Source of the DNA: Billgrantia sulfidoxydans
GTDB taxonomy: Bacteria > Pseudomonadota > Gammaproteobacteria > Pseudomonadales > Halomonadaceae
Length of the DNA: 64,000 bases
Direction: 5' to 3'
NCBI RefSeq assembly: GCF_017868775.1
Contig: NZ_CP053381.1
Coordinates: forward strand, 4,427,949 to 4,491,948
A model generated the notes under the pieces. It saw only the letters and a list, made by a program, of their open reading frames with translations. It was not told the origin of the DNA and did no database searches. Position numbers and translations under genes: made by a program. Of this stretch, positions 5,474 through 55,909 are shown piece by piece. Each line of letters starts with the position of its first letter. Position 1 is the first letter of the stretch.

Positions 5474-6607
5474 TCACGGCGAACCCCCGAGCCAGCGGTA
5501 GCGACGCCGCAGTCGGCTCCTCACCACCTCGGCCAGGGTGTTGACCAGGAAGGTGAACCCGAACAGCAGCAGGGCCGCCAGCAGCAGCAGCCGATAGGCC
5601 TCGCTGCCGGGAACGGCTTCGGGCAGCTCGACGGCGATGCCCGCCGCCATGGTGCGCATGCCCTCGAAGGGGCTGAGGCTGATCAGCGCAGTGTTGCCGC
5701 TGGCCATCAGCACGATCATGGTCTCGCCCACGGCGCGGCCGGCGCCGATCATCACCGCGGCAAAGATGCCGGGGGCGGCGGCCGGCAGCACGACCCGCCA
5801 CAGGGTCTGCCAGCGCGTCGCGCCCAGCGCATGGGCCCCCTCGCCGAGCCGGCCCGGCACGCCCGAGAGGGCATCCTCGGCCAGCGCATAGACGCTCGGC
5901 ATCACCGCGAAGCCCATCGCCAGCCCCACGATCATGGCGTTGCGCGTGGCGTAGTCGAGCCCCAGCTCGGCATCCAGCCAGACGCGCAGGTCGCCACCGA
6001 ACAGCAGCGCCTCGACCCCGGGCGAGAGGGTCAGGCCGAGCGCTGCCAGCAGGGCCAGCCACGGCACCAGCCACACGCCGGCCCAGGCCAGCGGCAGCCG
6101 GCGACGCCCCGCCGAAGGCAAGCGTCGCCACACCGCCGCGGCCAGCAGCACGCCCAGCGGCAATATCAGCAGCAGCGCCAGCGAGCCCGCCAGGTGGCGC
6201 TCCACCCAAGGCGCCAGCACCAGTCCGGCAACGAAGCCGATGACCACACCGGGAAGCGCTTCCATCATCTCCAGGGTGGGCTTCATGCGGCTGCGCAGCC
6301 GCTGCGACATGAACATCGCCGAGTGGATCGCCGCACCCAGCGCCAGGGGAATGGCGAAGGCCATCGCCCAGAAGGCCGCCTTCAGCGTACCCCAGGCCAT
6401 CGGCGTGAGGGTCAGGCGGATTCGTGCCGAGTCGAGGCTTCCTCCCAGCAGGGCCGGCAGAACCTCCATCAGCAGGAACACGCCAATGGCCAGCACGGCC
6501 ACGATCACCCCGATCCCTCCGGCCATGATCAGGACGGTGGCCAGCCGATCGCGCTGCCGGCGCCACCCGGATCGCGAGGAAGGGGAAGCGGGAAGGGGTT
6601 CTATCAT
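5474..6607 (-). CDS. pstC: Phosphate ABC transporter permease PstC
   Basis: The 377-residue permease starts MIEPLPASPSSRSGW at ATG 6607. The open frame extends upstream, but that part overlaps the Pho box and the pstS-like stop and is not family-like. TM1 is about residues 21-45. The MetI core includes an EAA-type loop (LSGVPGRLGEGAHALGAT) and a final pair of helices. It forms the channel with PstA. The start has no obvious Shine-Dalgarno, and if the proposed -10 at 6618-6623 is used the transcript would be nearly leaderless. It is shorter than the PstC of Pseudomonas that I recall (over 600 residues) and nearer the E. coli length. Confidence 0.93.
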   Translation of the reverse strand: MIEPLPASPSSRSGWRRQRDRLATVLIMAGGIGVIVAVLAIGVFLLMEVLPALLGGSLDSARIRLTLTPMAWGTLKAAFWAMAFAIPLALGAAIHSAMFMSQRLRSRMKPTLEMMEALPGVVIGFVAGLVLAPWVERHLAGSLALLLILPLGVLLAAAVWRRLPSAGRRRLPLAWAGVWLVPWLALLAALGLTLSPGVEALLFGGDLRVWLDAELGLDYATRNAMIVGLAMGFAVMPSVYALAEDALSGVPGRLGEGAHALGATRWQTLWRVVLPAAAPGIFAAVMIGAGRAVGETMIVLMASGNTALISLSPFEGMRTMAAGIAVELPEAVPGSEAYRLLLLAALLLFGFTFLVNTLAEVVRSRLRRRYRWLGGSP

Positions 6608-6617
6608 GATCGGCAGC

Positions 6618-6648
6618 CTATAACGACTCGATGACAGTTGGATGACAG
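6618..6648 (-). promoter_or_regulatory. Perfect Pho box and -10 upstream of pstC
   Basis: On the minus strand, bases 6648-6631 read CTGTCAT-CCAA-CTGTCAT: two identical 7-mers 11 bp apart, the exact PhoB half-site spacing and consensus. A TTATAG hexamer at 6623-6618 lies 7 bp downstream and can serve as the -10 element. The box sits between the stop of the pstS-like gene (6651) and the pstC start (6607), so pstCAB-phoU has its own PhoB-activated promoter. Confidence 0.85.
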
Positions 6649-6650
6649 CG

Positions 6651-7616
6651 TCACGGCGGCGGAGCGTCCAGTCCCAACCGCTCACGCTGGGACGCCAACG
6701 CCGCCTCCGAGAGCGCCACGAACCCCAGCTCGGAGACCGTCTGCTGGCCCTCGGGCGAGAGGATGAGTTCCAGCAGTGCCCGCTCCGGCCCCGACAACGC
6801 CTCCCCAGGGGGGAGGTTGGCGTAGAGGTAGAGCGAACGGCTCAACGGATAGCCGCCCCGGCGCACCTGCTCGGCATCGGGTAAGCGCCGCGTGCCCTCG
6901 TGATCCTCCAGGGCCAGGGCCTTGACCCCCGGAGTCAGATGGTTGAGCCCGACATAGCCGATCGCCCGGCGACTCTCCGTCACCGCCGCCGCCACGGCGG
7001 CCGATCCGGGATGCTCATTGAGTCGCTGCCGGTACTGGCCAGCACACAGGGCATGCTGGCGAAAGAACCCATGGCTGCCCGATGCCGGGTTGCGCCCGTG
7101 CAGCTCGATACGCCCGGCCCGGTCATCGATGCCCAGCTGCTGCCAACGGGTGATGTCGCGTTCACCGCCGCAGCGGCGGGTGCGGGAGAAGATGGCATCG
7201 ACCTCGGTCAGGCGCAGCGATTCCAGCGCATGGTGGCGATGGACGATGATCGCCAGCGCATCGCGGGCCACCTCGACTTCCACCGGGGCATAGCCGTGGC
7301 GCTGGACGAAGGCGCGGCGCTCCTCCTCGTCCATCGGCCGCGACATGGGGCCGAGCCGGGTGGTACCGGCCGCCAGGGCCGGCGGGGCACTGGCCGAACC
7401 GCTGGCCTGCAGCTGCAGGCGAATGCCGGGGTGTCGCTCGCCGAGCTGCTCGCCCCAGCGCAGCATCAGTCCGGCCATGGTGTCGGAACCCACGACGCCC
7501 AGGGTACCGACCGGCGGCTCGTCAGCCTGGGCCATCGCGGCCAGCAGCGCCAGCAGAACGGTAAGGCAGCCGTGGCGTAGCTTGCAGCGGCCAGGCCGCC
7601 TGCCGATGGGAATCAT
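6651..7616 (-). CDS. pstS: PstS-like phosphate ABC transporter substrate-binding protein
   Basis: A 321-residue protein with an N-terminal basic region and signal peptide (hydrophobic core LTVLLALLAAMAQA, cleavage after about residue 31). The mature part opens with VVGSDTMAGLMLRW and contains SGSASAPPALAAGTTRLGPMSR, which fits the PBP-like phosphate-binding family (PstS, SphX). The segment NPASGSHGFFRQHALC is also typical. It delivers phosphate in the periplasm to PstC-PstA. The start ATG 7616 has a strong GAGGAGG site 5 bases upstream. It is the first gene of the cluster, but only a degenerate Pho-box-like sequence (7633-7650, opposite orientation) lies upstream, in contrast to the perfect box before pstC. 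Confidence 0.88.
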   Translation of the reverse strand: MIPIGRRPGRCKLRHGCLTVLLALLAAMAQADEPPVGTLGVVGSDTMAGLMLRWGEQLGERHPGIRLQLQASGSASAPPALAAGTTRLGPMSRPMDEEERRAFVQRHGYAPVEVEVARDALAIIVHRHHALESLRLTEVDAIFSRTRRCGGERDITRWQQLGIDDRAGRIELHGRNPASGSHGFFRQHALCAGQYRQRLNEHPGSAAVAAAVTESRRAIGYVGLNHLTPGVKALALEDHEGTRRLPDAEQVRRGGYPLSRSLYLYANLPPGEALSGPERALLELILSPEGQQTVSELGFVALSEAALASQRERLGLDAPPP

Positions 7617-7780
7617 GCCGGCCTCCTCATGGCTGTCGAAGGATTGTCGGAGTCATGCATCGACTGGGGCGGCTTGTCGCAGCGCTGGTGAGCGCAGGCC
7701 ACGGCGTATAAGATGGCCCACTGCAATCGCTGCGATGCAATATCAGCGCCCACAACAACAAGCCGAGCTTACGACATTCC

Positions 7781-8188
7781 ATGACCGACCTCGACGATAT
7801 CCCCGCTCCCCAAGGGCAACTGACCCTCAAGTTACTGGCCAACCGCCAGGATACCAACCTCTACGGCGACATTCCCGGAGGCTGGCTGGTGCGCCACATG
7901 GACCAGGCCGCCGAGCTGGCGGCGGGTCGCGAAGCGCATGGCCGCACCGCCACCGTGGCCATCGAGACCATGGATTTCCTGTGCCCGGTACGCGTCGGCT
8001 CGATGGTCAACATCTACACCGCCGTACGCGAGATCGGCCACAGCTCGATCAAGATCGACGTGGAGGTGTGGATCCGCCAGCCCCACGAGCGCGAGGCCAG
8101 CGAACTGCACAAGGTCACCGAGGCCCGCTTCGTGATGGTGGCGCTCGACGACAAGGGGCGCATCCGCGCGGTGCATCAGCCCGGCTGA
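7781..8188 (+). CDS. YciA-type acyl-CoA thioesterase (hot-dog fold)
   Basis: A 135-residue single hot-dog domain. The segment NLYGDIPGGWLVRHMDQAAELAA is the acyl-CoA hydrolase active-site pattern, with Asp in GDI and the GGW turn, followed by TVAIETMDFLCPVRVGSMVNI. It would hydrolyse acyl-CoA to free acid and CoA in the cytosol; chain-length preference cannot be read from sequence. It is divergent from the pstS-like gene and convergent with the TRAP binding-protein gene, separated from it by a strong hairpin at 8212-8235. It is probably monocistronic. Confidence 0.88.
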   Translation: MTDLDDIPAPQGQLTLKLLANRQDTNLYGDIPGGWLVRHMDQAAELAAGREAHGRTATVAIETMDFLCPVRVGSMVNIYTAVREIGHSSIKIDVEVWIRQPHEREASELHKVTEARFVMVALDDKGRIRAVHQPG

Positions 8189-8211
8189 GCGACGCCGGGA
8201 TCTGAACGAGA

Positions 8212-45844: not shown

Positions 45845-47083
45845 ATGGATGCCACCGCCGCGAACGGCCAGATGCCTTCGTCCACTGCCCTCGACGTGGA
45901 CGAACTGATCGATTCGCTGGTGGCCTCCCATCGTACCCTCGTCGACGATCTTCCTTACGTGGGCTCCTCCGGCTGCCTGGCGGCGACCCGCTCGCTGATC
46001 GAGGACGAGGTGGGCGTGCTCGATGCCCGCCTGACGGGCGAGGAGGACCGGCGCCGCCTGCACGGGCTGAGGGAGTGGCTGGCGCAGGAGCTGGTGCGAC
46101 TCGAGCCGTGCTTCCACGAACGCGGTGAACCGCGCCCAAGCTGGGTGGTCGGCCGCCAGTCCCTGGCGTTGTGCGATCGGCAGCGGCTGATCATGTCCCA
46201 GGCCCTCGACCTGGAGGCCACGGATCCGCTGGCCAGGCGCTGCCTGGACCCGGGCTTCGATCTGGCCTCGCTGCTGGTGGGGCTCTACGTGCGTGACGAG
46301 ACGCGGCTAGCCCACTACGCACTCGACCGCTACCTGCGGCTATCCGGCGACTACGCCCTCACCCGCCTCCTCTCGGTGTTTGCCGTGTGCCGGTCGCTGG
46401 CGGGCGCGCGACGGGCGCTGCAGCGCTGGGAGGCGGGGCGCGGTACGGCGTTTCACCTGGCCGAGGTCATGACCGAGTGCCGGCGCTATCTCGAGCTGGC
46501 CGAGCGGGTCTCCAACTTCCGCTTCCCCCCGTTGATCATCGGGGTCGGCGTGTCCGGCAGCGGCAAGAGCCGTTTCATGGCCGAGATCGTCGAGCGGCTG
46601 GGTGCCGTGAGGCTCTGCTCGGATGCCGAGCGGCGGCGTCTCCTCGGGCTTTCTCCACAGGCGCTCGAGGCGGCACCGGCTGTGGATATCTTCGGTCCGG
46701 AGACCACCGGCCGCACCTACCAGCGCCTGGCCAGCCTGGCTGGACTCCTGCTGAACGCCGGCATTCCCACCTGCATCGATGCCACCTGTCTGACGCGTGC
46801 CCAGCGCCGGCTGCTGCAGCAGCAGGGCGAGGCTCGCGGCCTGCCCGTGCTCATCGTCAGCTTCGAGGCCGACGATGACACGCTCAGGGCTCGCATCGTC
46901 AAGCGTGCCAGGCGCCAGGGGGGAGACACGACCACCAGCCTCGAGGTTCTCAACCGGCAGCTGGCGCTGTTCGAGGGCTTCAGCGACGAGGAGCGTCAGC
47001 ATCTGCTGCATCTCGATACTACCGCCGACAACGCCTCTGACACGCTGGCGATGCTGATCCAGCAGCGTGTGTTTGCCGGCTGA
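45845..47083 (+). CDS. P-loop kinase (COG0645 type) with degenerate aminoglycoside-phosphotransferase-like N-terminus
   Basis: A 412-residue protein from ATG 45845 (GAGGAGTGACC site). The C-terminal half is a zeta-toxin/COG0645-like kinase: P-loop GVSGSGKS (residues 235-242), VRLCSDAERRRLLGLSPQAL, TYQRLASLAGLLLNAGIPTC and DATCLTRAQRR. The N-terminal half matches only the end of the APH-like domain of the usual two-domain proteins (FDLASLLVGLYVRDETRLAH, LDRYLRLSGDY) and lacks the HGDLH catalytic loop. Such full-length proteins have roughly 500 residues. So it is a shortened variant with a plausible active kinase and a dead partner domain. Substrate unknown. 28 bp after hemL. Confidence 0.75.
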   Translation: MDATAANGQMPSSTALDVDELIDSLVASHRTLVDDLPYVGSSGCLAATRSLIEDEVGVLDARLTGEEDRRRLHGLREWLAQELVRLEPCFHERGEPRPSWVVGRQSLALCDRQRLIMSQALDLEATDPLARRCLDPGFDLASLLVGLYVRDETRLAHYALDRYLRLSGDYALTRLLSVFAVCRSLAGARRALQRWEAGRGTAFHLAEVMTECRRYLELAERVSNFRFPPLIIGVGVSGSGKSRFMAEIVERLGAVRLCSDAERRRLLGLSPQALEAAPAVDIFGPETTGRTYQRLASLAGLLLNAGIPTCIDATCLTRAQRRLLQQQGEARGLPVLIVSFEADDDTLRARIVKRARRQGGDTTTSLEVLNRQLALFEGFSDEERQHLLHLDTTADNASDTLAMLIQQRVFAG

Positions 47084-47108: not shown

Positions 47109-47544
47109 CCCGTACCCCGCGTCGTGCGGGCGGCCAAGCGCCGCCAAAGGTAATCGAACGTTTACGATGTAAGGAAAACGATACCGAAAGGTTATCGCCT
47201 AAGCTTTTGAAAAATAGCGGCTTGTTTCTCATCACGAAAAACGCTCTCCTGTCGCTGTTACTGTTGCGTAACGTTTTCTTCCTCCCTTGCTGACGCCATG
47301 CCTCCGGTGCGCCATGCCTTGCGCCCGTCCCGTCTATTCCAGCGCCGCAACCCCTTGCCAAACAAGGAATGAAGAAACGCCTGGCATGGAGAGTGCGAAG
47401 GGATTCCCCGACCAGTCACTGCTTCTCCGTCAGCAAGGTGAAGGGGATCGGGGAATGATTTTTTCTTGGGTCAATCCCGGCGAGAGGCGCGAGCGTCTGG
47501 TCCTTCTCTGGAAGAAATATCATGCATGATTAGGGAGAAATGAC
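47109..47544 (+). promoter_or_regulatory. 436-bp regulatory gap before the glycine-rich protein gene
   Basis: No convincing gene is seen. It is AT-richer than its surroundings at 47150-47280. It includes a TTAC-GAT-GTAA dyad near 47162-47172 and the sigma-54-like promoter listed separately; a small frame starting inside that promoter was rejected. Confidence 0.5.
47382..47397 (+). promoter_or_regulatory. Sigma-54-type promoter before the glycine-rich protein gene
   Basis: CTGGCATGGAGAGTGCG has the invariant GG (47383-47384) and GC (47395-47396) exactly 10 bases apart, with a good -24 (TGGCATG) and a weaker -12 (GTGC rather than TTGC). The start would be near 47408, leaving a leader of about 135 bases. 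Two AAA+ regulators of the sigma-54-activator type are encoded in the same block, one with an intact GAFTGA loop. Confidence 0.5.
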
Positions 47545-48726
47545 ATGAGAAAGCATTACGTGATTGCAGGATCATCGCTGTTGGCACTGGTCCTGGCCAT
47601 TTCCCACGCGCACGCCAACCCGAGTTCAGGTTCCGCGGAAAATGTCGACCAGCAGGTCAATTCCGCGGCGCTGGCCGTTGGTGGTGCCGGCGGCAACAGT
47701 AGTGGCGGCAACGGGGGTAACGGCGGCAGCAGTAACAGCGCTGCCGGCTCCGGCGCCTGGAACAATGCCAGCGAGATGGACGACGGGGCCGACGCAGGCA
47801 GTGACGCCGAGATCTCCGCCAACAGCAACGCAACCAGCGATGCCGGGAATGGCGGAGCCGGTGGCATGGGTGGCGCCGGCGGTGCGGCAGGAGCCGGTGG
47901 CGATGCCTGGGCCATGAGCGAGTCCTACAACACCAGCACCAGCGTGGTGGCGATCCAGGACCTGCGTTCCACCGTGACCGGTTCACGCATCAACATCACT
48001 GCCGGCAATGGAGCGGCAGGCGGTGCCGGCAGCAGCGGTGGCGATGCCCTGGGCGTGAGCGCAGGCATCGGTGTCGGTGGGTCCGGCGGGGACGGTACCG
48101 GCGGTGATGGCGGGGCGTCCATGGCCCATGGTGGCGATGGCGCCGATGGCGGCGACGGTGCCGGCCTGGGCCTGGGGCTGGGGCTTGGCGCAGGCCAGGG
48201 CGGCAATGCCGACGGCAGCAACGGCAGCGGGGGTGCCGACAGCAGCGCCGTGGGCGGGCTGGCTGGCAACGTCGCCGGGGATGATGTCGAGGACAACGTG
48301 TCCACCTCGGCGGGCGGCAGCAGCAGCGGCGACGCCACTGCCTCGCCCTCTGTCGCGGGGGGCACCGGCGGGGCCGGAAGCGGCACCGGTACCGGCACCG
48401 GTAGCGGCACCGGCACCGGCGGCGCCGGCGGTTCGGGCGGCGATGCCATGGCGGGCGCCGGCGGCAGCTCCACCGGCAATGGCGGCGGTGGCGGCGGCGG
48501 CACCGGCACCGGCGGCGATGCCTATGCCTACGCCGGCGACGGCGGCGACGGCGGCAACGGTGGCAACGGCGGCAGTGCCTCGCTCGTCACCGGGGGCGCC
48601 TCGATGGCGGCAGGCGCCGGTACCTTCGGCGGCATCGCCAACATGAACCTCTCCACCGGCATCTACAACTCGCAGCTGGCGGGCACCAACGTGGCGGCAC
48701 ACAGCAACGTCAATATCGGCAACTGA
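47545..48726 (+). CDS. Secreted glycine-rich protein with two flanking repeat motifs (candidate matrix/amyloid subunit)
   Basis: A 393-residue protein with a classic signal peptide (MRKHYVIAGSSLLALVLAIS, cleavage after HAHA, about residue 24). The mature part is dominated by Gly, Ala, Ser, Asn, Asp and Thr (GGNGGNGGSS-like, GTGTGTGSGTG). Two imperfect 23-24-residue motifs of pattern N-x-S-T-x-[VI]-x3-Q-x(5,6)-V-x4-[IV]-N-I lie at residues 129-151 and 368-391, the second ending the protein. Repeats joined by long glycine-rich linkers recall FapC and, in the Q-x2-G-x-N run, curlin, but I do not recognise a family. No Cys is present. The start has AGGGAGA upstream. First gene of a four-gene rightward cluster with the C39 peptidase. 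Confidence 0.8.
   Translation: MRKHYVIAGSSLLALVLAISHAHANPSSGSAENVDQQVNSAALAVGGAGGNSSGGNGGNGGSSNSAAGSGAWNNASEMDDGADAGSDAEISANSNATSDAGNGGAGGMGGAGGAAGAGGDAWAMSESYNTSTSVVAIQDLRSTVTGSRINITAGNGAAGGAGSSGGDALGVSAGIGVGGSGGDGTGGDGGASMAHGGDGADGGDGAGLGLGLGLGAGQGGNADGSNGSGGADSSAVGGLAGNVAGDDVEDNVSTSAGGSSSGDATASPSVAGGTGGAGSGTGTGTGSGTGTGGAGGSGGDAMAGAGGSSTGNGGGGGGGTGTGGDAYAYAGDGGDGGNGGNGGSASLVTGGASMAAGAGTFGGIANMNLSTGIYNSQLAGTNVAAHSNVNIGN
48380..48421 (+). repeat. In-gene tandem hexamer repeat (Gly-Thr codons)
   Basis: About seven copies of a GGCACC/GGTACC/GGTAGC hexamer encode GTGTGTGSGTGTG in the glycine-rich protein. Such a tract could expand or contract by slippage in 6-base steps, keeping frame and changing only linker length. 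Confidence 0.75.
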
Positions 48727-48818
48727 TGGCTGGCGTGAGCTGAAGGCAAAGGGCCGGTGGCAAGGCTGCCGGCCCTTCCTTGGTCCCATTGACGAAGCTG
48801 CGAAGAGGGGGCGATGCC

Positions 48819-49187
48819 ATGAGGGGTAACGGGCGAGCGATGCATGTTGTGCTGGCGGCCGGCTTGAGCCTTGCCAGCCCGCTGATGTTGGCGGCGGACG
48901 AAGTCACCACGGAGTTCGATGGACTCCATCGCATCGAGCCAGGTGAGCTGCAGAGCATTACCGGCAGGGAGGGGTTCCGCGATCTGGTCAACGTCCAGAG
49001 CATCCAGAGCATGGAAGCGGTGGCACAGGGAGCGTCATTTACCGCCGATACGATTGTCTCGGGCAATATCACCGTCGAGGCCAATGCCATGGACAACGTT
49101 TCGGGAATCACCCTGATGAACCTCATGACGGGACATGCCAATGCGGTCTCGACAGGGGTGAGCATCAGCGTCTATGCGCCCCAGTGA
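48819..49187 (+). CDS. Small secreted protein with GG-leader-like motif
   Basis: A 122-residue protein from ATG 48819 (GAGGGGG site). The signal peptide core is VVLAAGLSLASPLMLAA (cleavage about residue 26). Then comes IEPGELQSITGREG (residues 39-52), which looks like the L-x3-E-L-x2-I-x-G leader cut by C39 peptidases. The remaining 70 residues are polar and beta-prone (TADTIVSGNITVEANAMDNV, TGHANAVSTGVSISV), sharing N/S/T/V alternation with the glycine-rich protein and with the protein at 49926. No family recognised. The stop overlaps the peptidase gene region (21 bp to its ATG). Confidence 0.7.
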   Translation: MRGNGRAMHVVLAAGLSLASPLMLAADEVTTEFDGLHRIEPGELQSITGREGFRDLVNVQSIQSMEAVAQGASFTADTIVSGNITVEANAMDNVSGITLMNLMTGHANAVSTGVSISVYAPQ

Positions 49188-49207
49188 GACTGGGCAAGGA
49201 GGGGGGC

Positions 49208-49921
49208 ATGACCGGAACCCTACGAAGGCTGGGCGCGTCGTCGGCCTGTCTCGTCATCGGTCTGGCGGCGCTTCCAGTGCAGGCGGCCGGGGTGACGATA
49301 GCGCTGAACGGAGGCTTCGGTTCCGTGACGGTGGCGGCCAGGAGTCATCACGAGATGCGCTGGGACGGTGTCGTCGCCCAGCAGTACGACTACAGCTGCG
49401 GTGCGGCCGCGGTGGCGACCCTGCTCACGTATCACTACGACCGGCCCACCACCGAGGCGGACGTCTTCGAGTCGATGATTCGTGTGGGTGAAGTCGAACA
49501 GATTCGGGAGCAGGGCTTCTCCATGCTCGACATGAAGCGCTATCTCGATGGCCAGGGGTTGAACTCGGATGGCTTCCGGGTGGGGCTCGACGATCTGGAG
49601 CGCATCGGGATTCCCGCCATCACCCTGATCAATACCGGAGGCTACCGACACTTCGTGGTCCTCAAGGGGATGGACGCCAATAGCGTGCTGCTGGGCGATC
49701 CGGCCGTGGGCACCGTGGCGGTGCCCCGGGCGCACTTCGAGTCGATCTGGAGCGGCCTGGTGCTGGGTGCACGCGCCGAGGTGGAAATCGCCAAGGCCAA
49801 CTTCAACCATGAGCGTGACTGGCGCATCCGCCCCGCGGCTCCCGTCGGCAGTGCCGTCGATCGCGCCGACGTGGCCTCCCTGCTGCTGCAACTGCCGGCG
49901 ATCAACGAACTGGGGCGTTAA
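49208..49921 (+). CDS. Exported C39-like cysteine peptidase (FapD-like)
   Basis: A 237-residue protein from ATG 49208, with GGAGG 7 bases before. A signal peptide (core ACLVIGLAALPVQA, cleavage about residue 27) places it in the periplasm. The peptidase C39 pattern is complete: Gln and Cys in QQYDYSCGAAAVATLLTYHY, His in GGYRHFVVLKGM and Asp in VLLGDPAVG. C39 enzymes cut after double-glycine leaders; here two secreted neighbours carry such leader-like segments. Unlike bacteriocin exporters it has no ABC or membrane domain; the free, exported form recalls FapD of the Fap amyloid system. It lies 4 bp before the next gene. Confidence 0.85.
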   Translation: MTGTLRRLGASSACLVIGLAALPVQAAGVTIALNGGFGSVTVAARSHHEMRWDGVVAQQYDYSCGAAAVATLLTYHYDRPTTEADVFESMIRVGEVEQIREQGFSMLDMKRYLDGQGLNSDGFRVGLDDLERIGIPAITLINTGGYRHFVVLKGMDANSVLLGDPAVGTVAVPRAHFESIWSGLVLGARAEVEIAKANFNHERDWRIRPAAPVGSAVDRADVASLLLQLPAINELGR

Positions 49922-49925
49922 CGAC

Positions 49926-50567
49926 ATGAGAATGTGCCGAATCCCATGGCGAGCGGCCGCGAGTCACCGGCGTGACCTGGCCCCGCCGGACCTTCCTGCC
50001 CGGCCCGGGTGCCTCGGTTGGCTGGGCATCGTGTCACTGTGCCTGTCCAGCGCCGCGCTGCCGGCGGCCGACTTCGCCTACCTGGAGCCGCTCGCCGAGG
50101 AGGAGCTGAGAGAGCTGCGCGGCGGGTTCCAGATCTCCGGGCTCGACATGAGCTTCGGGGCCACCCTGCAGACCCTGGTCGACAACGTGCGGATGGACAC
50201 CGTCTTCGTCATCAACGGAGCGGGCACGGAGATCGTATCCCAGACGATCACCCAGCACGGCGCCATCGATGGCCAGGTCGTCAGCCAGGTCGGGCAGGGC
50301 AGCGGCAAGGCCATCATGGAGTTGACCCCGAGCGGTATCAACCTGGCCGGAATGAAGGATTTCCCCGGCCTGGTGGTGAACGACGCCAAGGGTTTCACCT
50401 CGGTGTTCCACTCGGCGACCCGCGACGCCATTCTCGGCAGCGTGGTCAGCAATGCCTCGCAGCGCGAGATCCAGCAGCGGCTCGACATCGGTGTCCAGGT
50501 GAACAACCTGCCCGCCCTGCAAGCGGCCCAGCAGCGTCATGCCATCACGGAGTCCCTGGCCCGCTAA
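49926..50567 (+). CDS. Secreted protein with double-glycine leader
   Basis: A 213-residue protein from ATG 49926, 4 bp after the peptidase stop. After a long basic N-terminus comes a hydrophobic segment (LGWLGIVSLCLSSAALPAA, residues 30-48), then LEPLAEEELRELRGG (residues 53-67), a textbook double-glycine leader with the glutamates, leucines and GG in place, followed by FQISGLDMSFGATLQTL. The rest (VVSQVGQGSGKAIMELTPSG; SNASQREIQQRLDIGVQVNN) is polar and beta-prone. No family recognised; the position resembles accessory subunits such as FapE. A strong hairpin follows the stop. Confidence 0.75.
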   Translation: MRMCRIPWRAAASHRRDLAPPDLPARPGCLGWLGIVSLCLSSAALPAADFAYLEPLAEEELRELRGGFQISGLDMSFGATLQTLVDNVRMDTVFVINGAGTEIVSQTITQHGAIDGQVVSQVGQGSGKAIMELTPSGINLAGMKDFPGLVVNDAKGFTSVFHSATRDAILGSVVSNASQREIQQRLDIGVQVNNLPALQAAQQRHAITESLAR

Positions 50568-50584
50568 ACGCACGAGTGTCAATA

Positions 50585-50609
50585 AGGCCCGGTAGTCGGC
50601 ACCGGGCCT
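50585..50609. terminator. Bidirectional hairpin between the export cluster and the beta-barrel gene
   Basis: AGGCCCGGT (50585-50593) pairs perfectly with ACCGGGCCT (50601-50609) around a 7-base loop, midway between the two convergent stops (50567 and 50621). Confidence 0.75.
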
Positions 50610-50620
50610 CCGGCCGTGGT

Positions 50621-51694
50621 TCAGAACACGTTGGAGCCGAAGGGCACCCGTAGCGTTAACACGGTGTTGGGGGCGTCGTCGGTCACGCCCAGCTCCAGGC
50701 CCAGGTTGACCGAGACATCCTGGTTGAGCTGGTAGGACCAGCCCAGCAACAGCGAGCCGACATTGAGGGTGCGTGAGCTCTGGGTCACTCTGGCGTCGTC
50801 GTCGAAGTACTCGGTTTCGGTCTTGCCGATGAAGTCGTTCTTGAAGCCCAGGGTGAAGGAGGCCCGCGGATTGATGGCGTAGGCCATGCCGAAACTCAGG
50901 CGCACCGCATCGCCCGGATCCACCTCGCCGATGTGCAGCTCGTCGGTGAGTTGAATGTCGACGTCGTCGCTCATGTTGTAGAGGTAACCGAGGTTGGCGA
51001 AGAACACCGCCGGGTCGGAGGGAAACAGGGCGGTGATGCTGGGCTCGATGGCATGGAAGCCGGAGCCGGTAGCCAGCTCCTTCTCGATGCCGTCGGAATC
51101 GCGGGCGATGTCGAAGGGGCCGTCGCCGGTGACGCTCTTGTAGCGCAGGTTGCCGACGAAGAAGGGCCAGCCGTTGTGGCCGCGGTTGAGCTGGTAGCGC
51201 GCGGTGACTTCGATGTCCCCCAGGCCATTGCCGGAAAGGTCGCGGTCGATGTCGAAGCTGTCGTCGCCGACCGTGGGGACCGTGGCTCGCACGGTATCGT
51301 CGCGATAGACATAGGGCACCTTGAGCTCCATCTCGAGCCGGTCGGTGACACCGAGGCGGCCGGTCAGCGCCGCCGTCCAGATGTCGCGCTCGGCCTCCTC
51401 GGCGCTGAAGACTCCGATCAACAGGGTGCTGAGGATCTCGATGCCGCGAAAGGTCAGGCGGTTGACCCCCGAGTGGGAGTACTGCAGCGACGGCTCGAGC
51501 ACCAGCCGACCGCGCGGCGTCAACACGCCGCCGATGTCCGCGATGGCCTGGACTTCGGGCTGCTCGGGCGGTGCTTCGACCGGGGCCTGGCCCACGGGGG
51601 AGGTGATGCCTCCCGGGGTAGCGGATTCTTGGGCCACCACGACCTGGGACAGGCCCAGGGCGGTGGTCAACAGCAGGGCTTGCATTCTAGTCAT
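50621..51694 (-). CDS. Outer-membrane beta-barrel protein (MetA-pathway/transporter type; FapF-like role inferred)
   Basis: A 357-residue protein: signal peptide MTRMQALLLTTALGLSQVVV (cleavage after AQ), a Pro-rich linker (PVGQAPVEAPPEQPEVQ), then amphipathic strands typical of a barrel (LVLEPSLQYSHSGVNRLTFR, LEMELKVPYVYRDD, ARYQLNRGHNGWPFFVGNLR) and a C-terminal Phe (VPFGSNVF), the usual outer-membrane sorting end. It looks like the phenol-degradation-transporter barrel family, to which I recall FapF-type porins being assigned. It overlaps the upstream VpsR-like gene by 8 bases, so it is translationally coupled to a regulator. Confidence 0.8.
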   Translation of the reverse strand: MTRMQALLLTTALGLSQVVVAQESATPGGITSPVGQAPVEAPPEQPEVQAIADIGGVLTPRGRLVLEPSLQYSHSGVNRLTFRGIEILSTLLIGVFSAEEAERDIWTAALTGRLGVTDRLEMELKVPYVYRDDTVRATVPTVGDDSFDIDRDLSGNGLGDIEVTARYQLNRGHNGWPFFVGNLRYKSVTGDGPFDIARDSDGIEKELATGSGFHAIEPSITALFPSDPAVFFANLGYLYNMSDDVDIQLTDELHIGEVDPGDAVRLSFGMAYAINPRASFTLGFKNDFIGKTETEYFDDDARVTQSSRTLNVGSLLLGWSYQLNQDVSVNLGLELGVTDDAPNTVLTLRVPFGSNVF

Positions 51695-53090
51695 GTGTCG
51701 TTTCCCTTGGTGTCCCGGTTCCGGGGAACCGTTGTGATGAGTGTCGATCGACGATGCGCTGGATGTCGTACTTGTCCAGCAGGCGGTAGAGCGTGACGCG
51801 CGAGACCCCTAACTCCCGCGACGTGCGTGCCACGTTGTGGCGATTCCGCTTCAGTGCGTTGAGAATGGTGCTGCGCTCTGCCTGTTCACGGATTTCCTCC
51901 AGAGTGGGTGGCTGAAGTGGCTTGCCCGGGTTGGCAATGGGAATGTCCTCCGCCTCGATGCGGGGAGGATTCGACATGAGCATGGCGCGGCAGACCGTAT
52001 TCATCAGCTCGCGAATGTTGCCCGGCCAGTCGTGGTCCTGCAGTCGCGCCATGGCGGCTGGACTGAAGCCCGTCAGGCCGGAAGGCCTGTAGTGCTTGAA
52101 CTGTTCGAAGAAGAGCTCGACGAGTGGCTTGATATCCGGCTTCCTCTCCCGCAGCGGCGGTATCAGGATCTCGAGCACGTTCAAGCGATAGAAGAGGTCG
52201 AGCCTGAAACGCCCCTCCGCCACGAGCGCAGGCACATCCCTGTTGGTTGCCGCGAGGATGCGCACGTCTGCTCGGGTTTCCTTGCGGCTGCCCAGGCGAA
52301 AGAAACGGCGGCTCTCGATGAAGCGCAGCAGGGTCGCCTGCAGGTCATAGGGCAGCTCGCTGATCTCATCCAGAAACAGGGTGCCCCCGGCAGCGGCTTC
52401 GATCTTTCCCGTGCGACGACTGTGTGCATCCGTGAAGGCCCCCTTTTCGAAGCCGAACAGCTCGGATTGGATCAGGTTGGGCGGAATGGCACCGCAGTTG
52501 ACCGCAACGAACGGACCCTCGGCGCGGGAGGAAAGCTCGTGGATGGCCCTGGCGGCCAGCTCCTTGCCGGTTCCCGACTCGCCGCTGATGAACACCGGGG
52601 CATCGACGTCGGCGAGGGCATGGATCTGCTCGACGACGCGACGCATGCCGGGGGTGGAGCCGACCATGATCTTCCTGGCGACATGCAGGCGTGCCTGCGT
52701 GTCGGCGCGGGTCGACACGGCATGCAGCTTGGCGACGTTGCGCAACAGGCAGACCAGCCCGGGCAGGTCATCCCCGACATGCACGCTGTGGAACAACCGG
52801 ACAAGCGCGGGCCGGACCCGGGCATCGCTGGCTTGCCGAGCGTTGGTCAAGGCCACCCATTCGAAGCCGCTGTCGAGAACGAGGCCTTCCAGGGCCGACA
52901 GACTCTCGGCATCCTCTCCCTGCAGCTGGACGAGTCCGACGTGAAAGTTGCCCTCTGCCATGCAATGGCACGCTTCCTGGTGACTGGCGGCGAGCGTGGT
53001 GATGCAACCCTGTTCGTTCAGCGCCGCCAGCAACCTGCGCGAACGCTCGGGGGCTCGATCCAGCAACATCACGTTGGGGGGCGTTTCCAT
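51687..53090 (-). CDS. VpsR-like AAA+ transcriptional regulator 1 (GAFTDA variant)
   Basis: A 467-residue protein. N-terminal receiver-like domain (about 1-115) of the VpsR kind; AAA+ domain with Walker A GESGTGKE (170-177), Walker B GGTLFLDE (235-242), and C-terminal Fis-type HTH (ALKRNRHNVARTSRELGVSR). The sigma-54-contact loop reads GAFTDA (217-222) instead of GAFTGA, so it may not activate sigma-54 polymerase; VpsR of Vibrio cholerae also lacks a proper loop and, as I recall, works with sigma-70 and c-di-GMP. It lies 47 bp after the CsgD-like gene and overlaps the barrel gene. Confidence 0.88.
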   Translation of the reverse strand: METPPNVMLLDRAPERSRRLLAALNEQGCITTLAASHQEACHCMAEGNFHVGLVQLQGEDAESLSALEGLVLDSGFEWVALTNARQASDARVRPALVRLFHSVHVGDDLPGLVCLLRNVAKLHAVSTRADTQARLHVARKIMVGSTPGMRRVVEQIHALADVDAPVFISGESGTGKELAARAIHELSSRAEGPFVAVNCGAIPPNLIQSELFGFEKGAFTDAHSRRTGKIEAAAGGTLFLDEISELPYDLQATLLRFIESRRFFRLGSRKETRADVRILAATNRDVPALVAEGRFRLDLFYRLNVLEILIPPLRERKPDIKPLVELFFEQFKHYRPSGLTGFSPAAMARLQDHDWPGNIRELMNTVCRAMLMSNPPRIEAEDIPIANPGKPLQPPTLEEIREQAERSTILNALKRNRHNVARTSRELGVSRVTLYRLLDKYDIQRIVDRHSSQRFPGTGTPRETTHD

Positions 53091-53137
53091 GGCGGATATC
53101 CCTAATGACTGCCTCTGGCACGACTCCCTTGCCTGTC

Positions 53138-53809
53138 TCAGTGCCTCGATTCTCGCTTGTAGCTGGGAGGCACGCTGAACAGGTTGCGCCTGGCCCAGTT
53201 CATCGCCTGCAGCCGGTTGTGAACCTTGATTTTCCGGAAAATATTGTAGAGATGGGATTTCACGGTGTGCTCGCTGACGAACAGCTTCTCGGCGATTTCC
53301 GAGTTGGTGGCCCCCGTGCCGAGAAGCCCGATGATCTCCAGCTCGCGCTGCGTCAAGCCGCAGGCCGGGCGGTAGGAGTTCATCTGCTGCCGACGCAGCA
53401 GCTGGATCATGCGCGACATCAAGGTGCGCGACATCCAGAGGCTACCGCTGTGAAGCGCCTCGATCCCCTTGCAGATCAGCTCCAAGCTGTCGTTCCGATA
53501 GAAGATCCCCTGCAGATTGAGCGACGAGAGCAGTTCGACGGCGTGTCCTTCGTCACGCACATTGAATGCCGCAAGGCTGATGTTCTCCTTGCCATCCGCT
53601 GCGGCCTGCCATCGCTGCATGTTCGCTTCGCTCAGGTGATCCAGGTCGAGAATCACCAGGACGTCCTCACCTTCATCCATGGATGGCATGGCCTCGGTGT
53701 CGACAGCAATGACCTCATGATCCAGCTGGTGTTGAAGGTGTTCGATGAACAGCTTCGACTGAGGGTTGATGGCGGTTACAAGAAGGATTTGGAAATCCAT
53801 GGCGGCCAT
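53138..53809 (-). CDS. CsgD/VpsT-like LuxR-family regulator with WMSR motif
   Basis: A 223-residue protein. N-terminal atypical receiver (about 1-125; VLVILDLDHLS) and C-terminal LuxR HTH (about 150-210; GLTQRELEIIGLLGTGATNS, EIAEKLFVSEHTVKSHLYNI). The HTH region is strikingly CsgD-like, ending NRLQAMNWARRNL. W125-M-S-R128 matches the W[FLM][TS]R c-di-GMP-binding motif of VpsT. Such regulators switch on curli or biofilm matrix genes. Start ATG 53809 has AAGGAGG 7-8 bases before. Its upstream gap carries a tandem repeat and a perfect dyad. First gene of the leftward regulator-regulator-barrel cluster. Confidence 0.9.
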   Translation of the reverse strand: MAAMDFQILLVTAINPQSKLFIEHLQHQLDHEVIAVDTEAMPSMDEGEDVLVILDLDHLSEANMQRWQAAADGKENISLAAFNVRDEGHAVELLSSLNLQGIFYRNDSLELICKGIEALHSGSLWMSRTLMSRMIQLLRRQQMNSYRPACGLTQRELEIIGLLGTGATNSEIAEKLFVSEHTVKSHLYNIFRKIKVHNRLQAMNWARRNLFSVPPSYKRESRH

Positions 53810-53835
53810 GCTCGCCCCTCCTTTATCCGAATTTC

Positions 53836-53855
53836 AAAATGTAAAAAAATGTAAA
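53836..53855. repeat. Tandem 10-bp repeat just upstream of the CsgD-like gene
   Basis: AAAATGTAAA occurs twice in direct succession (53836-53845 and 53846-53855), 27 bp before the start of the CsgD-like gene. One helical turn per repeat suits side-by-side protein binding or an AT-rich promoter segment. Confidence 0.6.
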
Positions 53856-53891
53856 ATTACGGTGCTTATCGGAGTCTCGGCCATAAACGGC

Positions 53892-53911
53892 AAAGTTGTT
53901 AATACAACTTT
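53892..53911. promoter_or_regulatory. Perfect 8-4-8 dyad upstream of the CsgD-like gene
   Basis: AAAGTTGT-TAAT-ACAACTTT, about 83-102 bp before the CsgD-like start. It has the size and symmetry of a LuxR/CsgD-type or other dimer operator. The surrounding 53810-54260 stretch is markedly AT-rich and has no convincing gene. Confidence 0.5.
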
Positions 53912-54193
53912 TGCATATAGAAGTCGCCATTTATTCTCATGCGTTCTAATTTCTCATACCAGCTGGCTGGTCTCAGAGATATCAGCCTGTTCAAGGGAGT
54001 ACCTTTCCAGAAACGAAATTCGCTTAAAAATCCAGTTAAAACAATCAACTATAATTATTATGTGATGGTTTTACGGAACAGGGTTACGCCAGGTTTGCAG
54101 AGACTGGTGTTGACCGAAGTATTAGGCCGTGACGCCGCGAGTCGGCGCTTTTTCCTCCCTTGCGGCTGATGAAATCCCTTCCGAATTTACCTT

Positions 54194-54210
54194 TATGCAA
54201 CACATGCATA
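54194..54210. promoter_or_regulatory. Dyad centred about -80 from the sigma-54 promoter (candidate activator site)
   Basis: TATGCA-ACACA-TGCATA is a perfect 6-5-6 inverted repeat. A second dyad, AACTCA-N9-TGAGTT, lies at 54228-54248, immediately before the -24 element. Position and symmetry fit upstream activator sites for an AAA+ regulator; binding is inferred. Confidence 0.45.
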
Positions 54211-54255
54211 CAAAGTAGAAAATAAAAAACTCATTAAAACAGTGAGTTACATTTT

Positions 54256-54271
54256 TGGCATGTCATTTGCT
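54256..54271 (+). promoter_or_regulatory. Strong sigma-54 promoter pointing into a gene-free stretch
   Basis: TTGGCATGTCATTTGCT matches the consensus TGGCAY-N5-TTGCW: GG at 54257-54258 and GC at 54269-54270, 10 bases between. Start expected near 54282. The next rightward gene is rdgB, 2 kb away beyond an opposing gene, so the transcript is probably noncoding. Confidence 0.65.
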
Positions 54272-54281
54272 CCTTACATGG

Positions 54282-54525
54282 CGAGTGACGGCAAGCGTTC
54301 ATTCTCGAGCATTACAACCATCAGGCAATGGCATGACATCAATCACGCCGAGAACGACACATAGGCAAGGATATGGGCCTCGGTCGCGGACAAAGCGCAG
54401 ATGCTTTTCGGTAGCGGTGGACTGGGAGCGGAATCCGACGACGCACGATCACTTGACCCTCCGCATGCCGTTCCAGATGTGACGGCTCGCCCCGTACCGC
54501 GCCGGCGGCGCCGGACGGTACGGGA
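54282..54525 (+). ncRNA. Candidate sigma-54-dependent small RNA
   Basis: About 240 bases between the sigma-54 promoter and a very strong hairpin (54491-54524), with no convincing reading frame (the only frame lacks a ribosome site and family resemblance). The arrangement, an NtrC-type activator gene beside a sigma-54-driven intergenic transcript, recalls luxO-qrr. There is no clear U-tract after the hairpin, and expression is untested. Confidence 0.35.
54491..54524. terminator. Very strong compound hairpin
   Basis: CCCGTACCG (54491-54499) pairs with CGGTACGGG (54516-54524); inside, CCGGC-GGC-GCCGG (54502-54514) continues the stem. It lies 18 bp after the stop of the VpsR-like gene 2 on the minus strand and at the end of the candidate sRNA on the plus strand, so it may serve both. 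Confidence 0.7.
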
Positions 54526-54541
54526 CCTGCGAGAGGGGACA

Positions 54542-55909
54542 TCAAGCGGACGACAGCGAGATGGAGGCGTCGCGATTGCGCGCCAGCTGGTGCTTTTCCA
54601 TGAGGCGATAGAGCGTCACGCGGGAAACGCCAAGCTCATCGGCCGCCTTCTTGACCTTGTGCTTGTTGCGGCGCAGGGCGCAGATCAATGCCTCCTTCTC
54701 GGCATGGTTACGCGCCTCTTCGAGCGTGACGACGTTGCGGTTCAAGGTGCGCCGCTCCAGGCCCAGATCGATGGGTTTGATCAAGCGCTGCTCACACATG
54801 ATCATGGCACGGCGTACCCGGTTGATCAGCTCCCGGATATTGCCCGGCCAGGAGTATTGACGCATGAGGGCCAGGGCTTCCTGGCTGAAGCCGCGAACCT
54901 TCATGGATTTCTCTTCGATGAATTTATCGAAGAAGAACTTGGCCAGGATCTCGATATCCTCCTGGCGCTCCCTCAGTGGGGGGATGGGAACCTGCAGCAC
55001 ATTGAGCCGATGATAGAGATCTTCGCGGAAGCGTCCCTCCTCGATGGCCTTCTCGAGGTCCATGTGGGTAGCCGACAGCACGCGGACATCGACATGGATC
55101 TCATCGACCGCACCGATACGCTGAATGGTTTTTTCCTCCAGGAAGCGCAGCAGGTTGACCTGCAGCTCAAGGGGGAGATCGCCTATCTCATCCAGGAAAA
55201 GAGTGCCCCCCGCGGCCGCCTCGATCTGTCCGATCTTCATCTGGCTGGCGCCGGTAAAGGCGCCCTTTTCATGTCCGAAGAGTTCGGACTGGATCAGGTT
55301 GCTGGGCAGGGCGCCGCAGTTTACCGCGACGAAGGGTGCCGGAGCGCGCATCGATCGCTCGTGTATGGCACGGGCGGCAAGCTCCTTGCCCGTGCCTGAC
55401 TCGCCGCTGATGAAGACGGGAGCATCGACGGAGGCGACGCGCCTGATGGTGTCGAATACCTTCTGCATGGCGGGGACCGTTCCCACCATCTCGAATTCCG
55501 CTGCCTGGGGCTTGGCCGCTCTCTCCTCGACCCTGAGCCGTTTCATGGCCGCGGCATGCTGCATCAGGCAGTCGACCTGGTCGACGTCGATGGGCTCGGG
55601 CTGAAAGGCCATGAAAAGATTGCCCAAGGTCTTGCACAGCACCGGGTCGTCGGGTTCCGGCTCATGGAGCAGTGCCATCCACTCCATGTCCGAGCGGATG
55701 ACGAGCAGTTCGATACGCTTCAGGTCATCATGGCTGTCGTGCAGGAAAAGAATGCCCGCGGCGTACTCAGCCTCGCTCAATCGAGCCTCGGCCTGGGACA
55801 GGGAGCCTGCCGTGTCGATGCGCCAGCCTTTTTTCTGCATGCCTTCAACGAATTCTTGATGGTTGTGGCTCAGCGAGCCGACCATCAAGAGTCTTGCCTT
55901 GTTATCCAT
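54542..55909 (-). CDS. VpsR-like AAA+ sigma-54-type regulator 2 (intact GAFTGA)
   Basis: A 455-residue protein related to the one at 51687: VpsR-like N-terminal domain (about 1-115; ILFLHDSHDDL), Walker A GESGTGKE (169-176), GAFTGA loop intact (216-221), Walker B GGTLFLDE (234-241), arginine region and C-terminal HTH (LRRNKHKVKKAADELGVSRV). Retention of GAFTGA means it can in principle drive sigma-54 promoters such as those at 47382 and 54256. No canonical phospho-acceptor context is obvious. Monocistronic. Confidence 0.88.
   Translation of the reverse strand: MDNKARLLMVGSLSHNHQEFVEGMQKKGWRIDTAGSLSQAEARLSEAEYAAGILFLHDSHDDLKRIELLVIRSDMEWMALLHEPEPDDPVLCKTLGNLFMAFQPEPIDVDQVDCLMQHAAAMKRLRVEERAAKPQAAEFEMVGTVPAMQKVFDTIRRVASVDAPVFISGESGTGKELAARAIHERSMRAPAPFVAVNCGALPSNLIQSELFGHEKGAFTGASQMKIGQIEAAAGGTLFLDEIGDLPLELQVNLLRFLEEKTIQRIGAVDEIHVDVRVLSATHMDLEKAIEEGRFREDLYHRLNVLQVPIPPLRERQEDIEILAKFFFDKFIEEKSMKVRGFSQEALALMRQYSWPGNIRELINRVRRAMIMCEQRLIKPIDLGLERRTLNRNVVTLEEARNHAEKEALICALRRNKHKVKKAADELGVSRVTLYRLMEKHQLARNRDASISLSSA

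Follow-up and report, generated by a model that had tools for sequence, protein, structure and literature searches.

What is exported by a run of eight genes near the end of the Billgrantia sulfidoxydans genome, and by what kind of machinery? The window, meaning the whole stretch of DNA analysed here, is the final 64 kb of the sole contig of that genome, and the eight contiguous genes that the original prediction described in it (A to H) were all confirmed in place. Genes A, B, C and D lie on the + strand and encode, in turn, a secreted glycine-rich protein of 393 residues (47545–48726), a small secreted protein (48819–49187, its start re-set to the ATG at 48819), an exported C39 cysteine peptidase homologous to FapD (49208–49921, likely start the ATG at 49208) and a secreted protein with a FapE-like N-terminal module (49926–50567, likely start the ATG at 49926); starts and signal peptides of the four are predictions read by eye from the translations. 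Converging on them from the − strand are genes G, F and E, upstream of which gene H lies alone on that strand. The locus is very likely a Fap-type export system, and the explanation of it as a whole that we regard as probable, judging from sequence, is a divergent Fap-type secretion system in which the C39 peptidase cuts leaders.

The machinery is the most readily recognised part. In scans of Pfam and NCBIfam that covered nine proteins from the locus, C matched Peptidase_C39 (E-value of 4.5e-22), FapD (3.6e-39) and FilB (2.5e-35), and it also matched the double-glycine protease of PDB 6mpz (1.4e-7). Its predicted active-site residues, Cys (49397–49399, +), His (49649–49651, +) and Asp (49697–49699, +), are invariant in eight sequences. 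Gene E (50621–51694, −) encodes a FapF-type outer-membrane barrel, matching the FapF crystal structure (PDB 5o67, 4.3e-30), the NCBIfam models FapF (1.6e-42) and FilC (2e-20), and Pfam Phenol_MetA_deg (7e-6). The Fap, Fil and CsgD model scores of the window proteins are all below the NCBIfam cut-offs (C scores 134 bits against a FapD cut-off of 330, E 145.7 bits against a FapF cut-off of 700); so are those of FapC, FapD, FapE and FapF from the canonical operon of a same-genus genome (L052), the FapF of which reaches 373.6 bits.

The gene set is conserved in relatives. Searched in 58 genomes, its own included, protein C found a match in 25: its own and 13 of a close type at 59–84% identity, the remaining matches being 36–44% identical except for two at 26–27% in 706-residue frames. 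A C39 profile scan of contigs supplied further loci, the named ones being the best 80 of 566; the closest named relative among the matches listed is that of Billgrantia antri (89%), although genomes almost identical to that of the window may have been left out of the list. Pooling of both searches and removal of seven duplicates gave 35 Halomonadaceae-type loci and 51 more distant ones, the latter including Aquisalimonas, Pelagibius, Thioalkalivibrio, Ectothiorhodospira, Marinobacter, Vibrio and Photobacterium. These loci, a non-random sample, were picked by C39, and it is therefore the presence of the other genes that is informative. In the Halomonadaceae-type loci B, C and D are present in 35 of 35 and A in 34, a VpsR-like regulator is present in all 35, and the barrel gene is on the opposite strand in every one. 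Among the distant loci, D stands beside C39 in 35 at E≤0.05, of which 18 reach E≤1e-3; 35 have the barrel on the opposite strand and 12 on the same strand, and 4 have none in the stretch; VpsR-like regulators occur in 30. Co-occurrence of the genes across genomes, a check named beforehand, thus holds in the 35 Halomonadaceae-type loci and gives no refutation, and the earlier claim of one dedicated export system is borne out, as a Fap-related system, by gene-set conservation together with the homologies. The separation of the barrel gene from the subunit operon and its placement with regulators on the other strand are likewise supported, but a 'moved' barrel is not unusual, a separated fapF being among the variants reported in passages of PMC3792158.

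E could instead be an ordinary uptake channel for hydrophobic compounds, of the phenol type, to which the C39 operon is unrelated; its Pfam label is Phenol_MetA_deg, and FapF itself resembles an uptake-channel family (PMC6173800, in part). Against this reading, no match of E is better than FapF, and the barrel accompanies C39 and D in all 35 Halomonadaceae loci and lies within the stretch in 47 of 51 distant ones; we consider it highly improbable, and it was set aside on the strength of the FapF match.

A new element is found at the N-terminus of D. Family matches of D are weak, the whole-protein NCBIfam model FapE among them (0.0048). In a profile-profile comparison D aligned with 26 FapE sequences over 37 N-terminal columns only (hhalign 90%, score 45.0, against at most 17.4 in 20 column-shuffled controls); Halomonadaceae D proteins alone gave 54%, with a score of 34.1 against a control of 17.3. 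The sequence of D immediately behind its apparent signal peptide is LAEEELRELRGGF, and here lies a double-glycine-type leader, L-x3-E-L-x2-L-R-G-G / F (50091–50126, +). Double-glycine leaders cut by C39 peptidases have the consensus L-12, E-8, L-7, a hydrophobic residue at -4, and G-2 G-1; counted from its second glycine, the leader of D has L-12, E-8, L-7, L-4, G-2 and G-1.

Across D proteins, FapE and, more loosely, B, the consensus is L-x3-E-L-x2-L-R-G-[G/R]. Of the 70 D loci left after deduplication, 69 have R[GA]G[FLY] with L or M at -7; the 70th (L090) has DLRGTF. At positions outside this imposed pattern, the 69 D proteins have a hydrophobic residue at -12 in 68, E at -8 in 44, and L or M at -4 in 57. 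All 26 FapE proteins of canonical operons have RG[RK][FY], in most cases within LSD-x-EL-x2-MRGR, and Aeromonas FapE has LADGELAHLRGRY. A strict form of the pattern has 68 matches in 17,966 open reading frame (ORF) pieces, 47 of them in the D and B families; the other 21 are by eye all Fap-type (17 FapE, 3 D-like proteins and the product of 1 gene that opens a fap operon). Since the D and B sets were gathered by profiles containing the motif, and 8 of the 17 FapE came from loci fetched with the FapE model, only part of this result is independent. In an alignment of 50 D proteins the leader R and second G are the sole invariant columns; this was not used as evidence because the rows were motif-picked and L090 (RGT) was dropped for lacking the motif. 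No report of this leader was found among the matches listed from open PubMed Central papers or in main-text passages of such papers.

B carries a related motif, I-x3-E-L-x2-I-T-G-R / E (48933–48968, +), identified by pattern match, and here reads IEPGELQSITGR followed by EGF. The pattern fits 33 of 36 Halomonadaceae B proteins, that of the window included, and RGG occurs in a number of B proteins from distant loci (L113, L115, L129, L135 and L192). In one clade RG is changed to RA in the leaders of both B and D (L036, L038, L040, L068, L073, L075, L076, L077, L079 and L084), and B/D leader pairs comprise 10 A/A, 22 G/G, 1 mismatch and 3 unclassified.

Genome-wide, the leader is tied to standalone C39 genes. 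A leader profile of 34 positions, built from 30 rows, was searched in 38 whole genomes, one of which (G428) lies outside the 58-genome C39 search. It gave 24 matches at E≤2.5e-7, at least 4 of them rows of the model, the next match being at 0.009. All 24 pair one to one with the 24 standalone C39 genes of the 58-genome search, at 140–340 bp downstream and on the same strand; the two weak C39 matches in 706-residue frames have no leader match. Among 369 genomes of the class there are 29 leader matches in 27 genomes at E≤1e-4, at least 7 of them rows of the model, and every one of the 29 3-kb stretches contains a C39. Taken from the other side, 28 of the 57 C39 genes found at E≤1e-15 have a leader match; the figure is 28 of 36 for those at E≤1e-31, and 13 of 15 for those at E≤1e-60. 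Four of the 29 unpaired C39 genes were examined: the two misses among the best 15 are G394, which has a leader that the model missed, and G424, which is without a D gene, and those of G266 and G064 are of other types. In these genomes a leader implies a C39 neighbour, and a C39 need not imply a leader. Other standalone C39 types adjoin proteins with leader-like starts, LSDEELSQHDG at L193 (993–1754) and LNDTGLEQATGQAG, in a DUF6160 protein, at L194 (2383–3243), hinting that the leader principle is wider.

For Fap itself, passages of PMC5557850 report that the active Cys of FapD is needed for secretion, which C38A abolishes, and that the target is unclear, with no canonical C39 sequence in the Fap proteins and no mass-spectra peptides from the first ~70 residues of FapE. 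The substrate of FapD is given as yet to be determined in parts of PMC6173800, where fapD and fapF homologues are described as co-localising in five additional phyla; according to a passage of PMC12822426, the N-terminus of FapE and a part of FapF are only 'thought' to be that substrate. We consider it likely that the C39 peptidase cuts D, and somewhat favour its cutting B as well. A different role for the leader, as a docking signal for barrel or peptidase with C39 acting as a chaperone that cuts neither D nor B, would suit the mostly R or K, rather than G, at the last leader position of FapE and B, and some C39-like domains are inactive chaperones (PMC5557850, in part). Against it are the invariant Cys, His and Asp, the register, which fits double-glycine leaders, and the C38A and FapE results just described; we consider docking without cutting distinctly unlikely. 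The linkage of leader and C39 predicts a substrate and a cut site for FapD-type peptidases, and it names the residue to test.

The exported subunits are more diverged. B has chance-level family matches only (E of 0.07–0.09 in Pfam and NCBIfam). In profile-profile comparison the C-terminal repeat of B (49071–49178, +) resembles Fap repeats (hhalign 77%, E of 2e-5, score 25.1, with 20 column-shuffled controls at no more than 9.8). Mature A is 33% glycine and matches no Pfam or NCBIfam family at E≤1. Conserved columns in 24 sequences define a middle module beginning GGDAWAMSESYNTSTSVV (47890–47994, +) and a C-terminal module, FGGIANMNLSTGIYNSQLAGTNVAAHSNVNIGN (48580–48723, +), the latter aligning with the repeat of B (hhalign 94%, score 37.3, with 20 column-shuffled controls at no more than 14.9).

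The linkers of A vary by taxon, being rich either in glycine or in Asp, Ser and Asn (D/S/N). A-like proteins of Pelagibius and Aquisalimonas are glycine-rich and have the window-type C-terminal module (profile E of 1.5e-27 or better with bias correction off, missed with it on). Those of Thioalkalivibrio, Ectothiorhodospira, Marinobacter and Vibrio have D/S/N-rich repeats and a tail that is Fap-like by eye; 13 such tails, from Thioalkalivibrio, Ectothiorhodospira, Vibrio and some other loci but none from Marinobacter, match B modestly (43%, score 22.4 against a control of 13.3). Six A- and B-like proteins from distant taxa have no Pfam family at E≤0.1. The alphaproteobacterium Pelagibius (L089) has tandem A-type glycine-rich genes (5907–7058 and 7083–8201, +), and its barrel gene is on the opposite strand, upstream of them by a few kb. 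The prediction that the subunits are unrelated to FapB and FapC stands insofar as the FapB and FapC models and the Fap-repeat profile find neither A nor B; it is too strong because the repeat of B, which the A C-terminus resembles, is Fap-like and D has the N-terminal module of FapE. In same-genus fap operons an unnamed first gene precedes fapA (for example, L049:4992–5414) and its product has a leader RGR[FY]; two such proteins gave no NCBIfam match at E≤0.01, and the gene could be a B homologue.

Several results weigh against a divergent Fap-type system with a leader-cutting C39. The NCBIfam FapB and FapC models have no match to A or B at E≤1, and a plain search of 54 B and 32 A tails with a Fap-repeat profile, built from 44 repeats of canonical FapB and FapC of same-genus loci, finds nothing at E≤0.05, one B protein being at 0.18 and that of the window at 64. 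Even profile to profile, A is weakly similar to Fap repeats (score 15.1 against a control maximum of 11.6), the 13 D/S/N-type tails do not match the window A tail (0.8%, score 12.0, below a control maximum of 13.9), and the AlphaFold model of A from 24 sequences is uninformative (predicted local distance difference test score of 33, predicted template modelling score of 0.16). The leader of B is looser and often ends in GR, unlike the classic GG; matches of D outside the Halomonadaceae are partly weak, as counted above; and standalone C39 genes without a leader are common, given the 28 of 57 paired at E≤1e-15. The FapE sequences compared come from outside Pseudomonas. The parallel change of G to A in the leaders of B and D was rejected as proof of covariation, since the tree needs only a single change in D and two in B to account for it.

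The role of A bears on what is made outside the cell. We think it reasonably probable that the main subunit of the fibre or matrix is A. The product could also be a soluble or gel-forming glycine-rich matrix polymer and not an amyloid or ordered fibre, as the mostly glycine-rich linker of A, its model without confident structure and the difference of linkers among taxa might suggest; the conserved terminal modules, the Fap-like repeat of B and the Fap-type machinery speak against such a polymer, which we regard as unlikely.

The − strand genes point to control by cyclic di-GMP (c-di-GMP). F (51687–53090, −) and H (54542–55909, −) are VpsR-like AAA+ regulators, sigma-54 activators with a VpsR domain by Pfam and NCBIfam, and are 44% identical to each other. 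The GAFTGA motif is intact in H and replaced by GAFTDA in F, which may not work with sigma-54; the 43 VpsR-like regulators of the 35 loci comprise 30 with GAFTGA, 8 with GAFTDA, 4 with GSFTGA and 1 with neither. G (53138–53809, −) is a VpsT/CsgD-like regulator with REC and GerE domains (CsgD model 1.8e-42) and has the sequence WMSR; the motif W[FLM][TS]R, which passages of PMC9303241 describe as the VpsT c-di-GMP motif, occurs in 21 of 21 G-like ORFs. A sigma-54-like promoter site, TGGCATGGAGAGTGCG (47382–47397, +), lies 163 bp before A and is weak, with 8 of 11 positions, equalled in 12.5% of 200 shuffles. Sites of at least 9 of 11 precede A in 19 of 23 loci, each equalled by no more than 4.5% of 200 shuffles, and sites of at least 8 of 11 lie 118–196 bp before A in 21 of 23. 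Together, the VpsT motif and the sigma-54-like site favour the c-di-GMP-type regulators that had been predicted from the letters. Some Billgrantia relatives have a second CsgD/VpsT-like gene beyond A (L030:3171–3812, −; L032:11239–11919, +; L060:5679–6503, −), and those of L030 and L032 share ~56% identity with G; no such gene was seen there in the window.

Between G and H (53810–54541) is an orphan sigma-54-like site, TGGCATGTCATTTGCT (54256–54271, +), 447 bp from G and with no same-strand gene close downstream. In Billgrantia aerodenitrificans (L060), where the canonical and window-type systems are direct neighbours and H comes next, a similar site (14072, +) at about the same distance from G precedes the canonical fap operon. 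As the window genome has one C39 match only, the orphan site may be the scar of a lost canonical fap operon. In L052 the corresponding chromosomal site is taken by a canonical fap operon (FapC 3.1e-38, FapD 2.3e-84, FapE 5.9e-30 and FapF 1.1e-111 in NCBIfam), which is flanked by a CsgD-like gene and the H orthologue and precedes rdgB-hemW; orthologues of H are 83% identical at that site in L052 and beside the L060 system.

A working order for the proposed system would be as follows. G, responding to c-di-GMP, and H with sigma-54 would switch on the A-B-C-D operon, and the four products would cross the inner membrane by Sec. The periplasmic C39 peptidase would recognise the leader that starts mature D, and that of B, and cut at or next to RG/G or RG/R. 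Once trimmed, D and B would license the passage of A through the FapF-like barrel E, or guide it. Outside, B as nucleator and D as an anchor or initiator like FapE would organise A, which would form a glycine-rich fibre or matrix that Fap-like terminal repeats hold together.

With Fap this system shares a FapD-type periplasmic C39, a FapF-type barrel, a FapE-like N-terminal module with leader, repeat-bearing subunits and VpsR-like regulators nearby. It differs in its glycine-rich main subunit, in which only modules are conserved, in a one-repeat B with leader, and in having no single fapABCDEF operon, the barrel being on the opposite strand with regulators. A FapC with about three Fap repeats was not found in the window system, the A C-terminus having no significant Fap-repeat match, and the FapA model, which detects FapA in L049 (2.7e-6), has no match at E≤1 among the nine scanned proteins. 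Canonical fap operons occur in same-genus genomes (L043 and L045–L052), and the window C39 is only ~36–43% identical to theirs; L047 (2736–12703, −) comprises tandem canonical operons in G006, which also has a window-type system elsewhere. Vibrio has Fap variants with a single-repeat FapB, a separate fapF and a FapC of 16 repeats, variable linkers and separated fapF being reported Fap traits (PMC3792158, in part); the single-repeat small subunit and separated barrel are common to these variants and the window system. In Vibrio superstes (L131) the gene order is that of the window, from an A-like gene through B, C39 and D to a barrel on the opposite strand; its A-like protein, unlike A, has D/S/N-rich repeats and one terminal module.

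The Fil system (NCBIfam 'putative pilus system', FilB and FilC) likewise has a standalone C39 and a barrel, but its models score below those of Fap (FilB 122 of 475 bits, FilC 73 of 630 bits), and DUF6160, which we take to be the FilA-like partner of Fil, has no match among the scanned locus proteins and adjoins another C39 type (L194). Peptidase-containing ABC transporters such as PCAT1 and ComA share the C39 domain (PDB 6mpz and 4ry2) and the leader type, whereas here C39 is a separate exported protein and its substrates would pass through Sec first. The regulator families of G and of F and H are those of curli (CsgD) and of VpsT and VpsR, with BerB of Burkholderia, a c-di-GMP and RpoN activator with GAFTGA (PMC5552954, in part), comparable to F and H; unlike in curli and VpsT contexts, they adjoin another export system. 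Identity with curli was rejected, as there is no CsgA, CsgB, CsgG, CsgE or CsgF match among the scanned locus proteins and only G is CsgD-like.

The leader tied to standalone C39 names a candidate FapD-type substrate, and Fap-type export is extended to systems whose main subunits escape the family models used here. We give roughly even odds to standalone exported C39 peptidases defining a general two-step pathway, in which Sec transport across the inner membrane would be followed, in the periplasm, by a cut at the double-glycine leader on which export through a FapF-type barrel depends, the branches of the pathway having interchangeable fibre subunits. With the same balance of chances, those branches would be the Fap amyloid, the glycine-rich system described here and the D/S/N-repeat systems of Vibrio, Marinobacter and Thioalkalivibrio.

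In the window as a whole, an Rfam scan gave no match at the gathering threshold and a tRNA search found none. Between hemL and A lies an AAA_33 kinase-like gene (45851–47083, +), which occupies the same place in several relatives.

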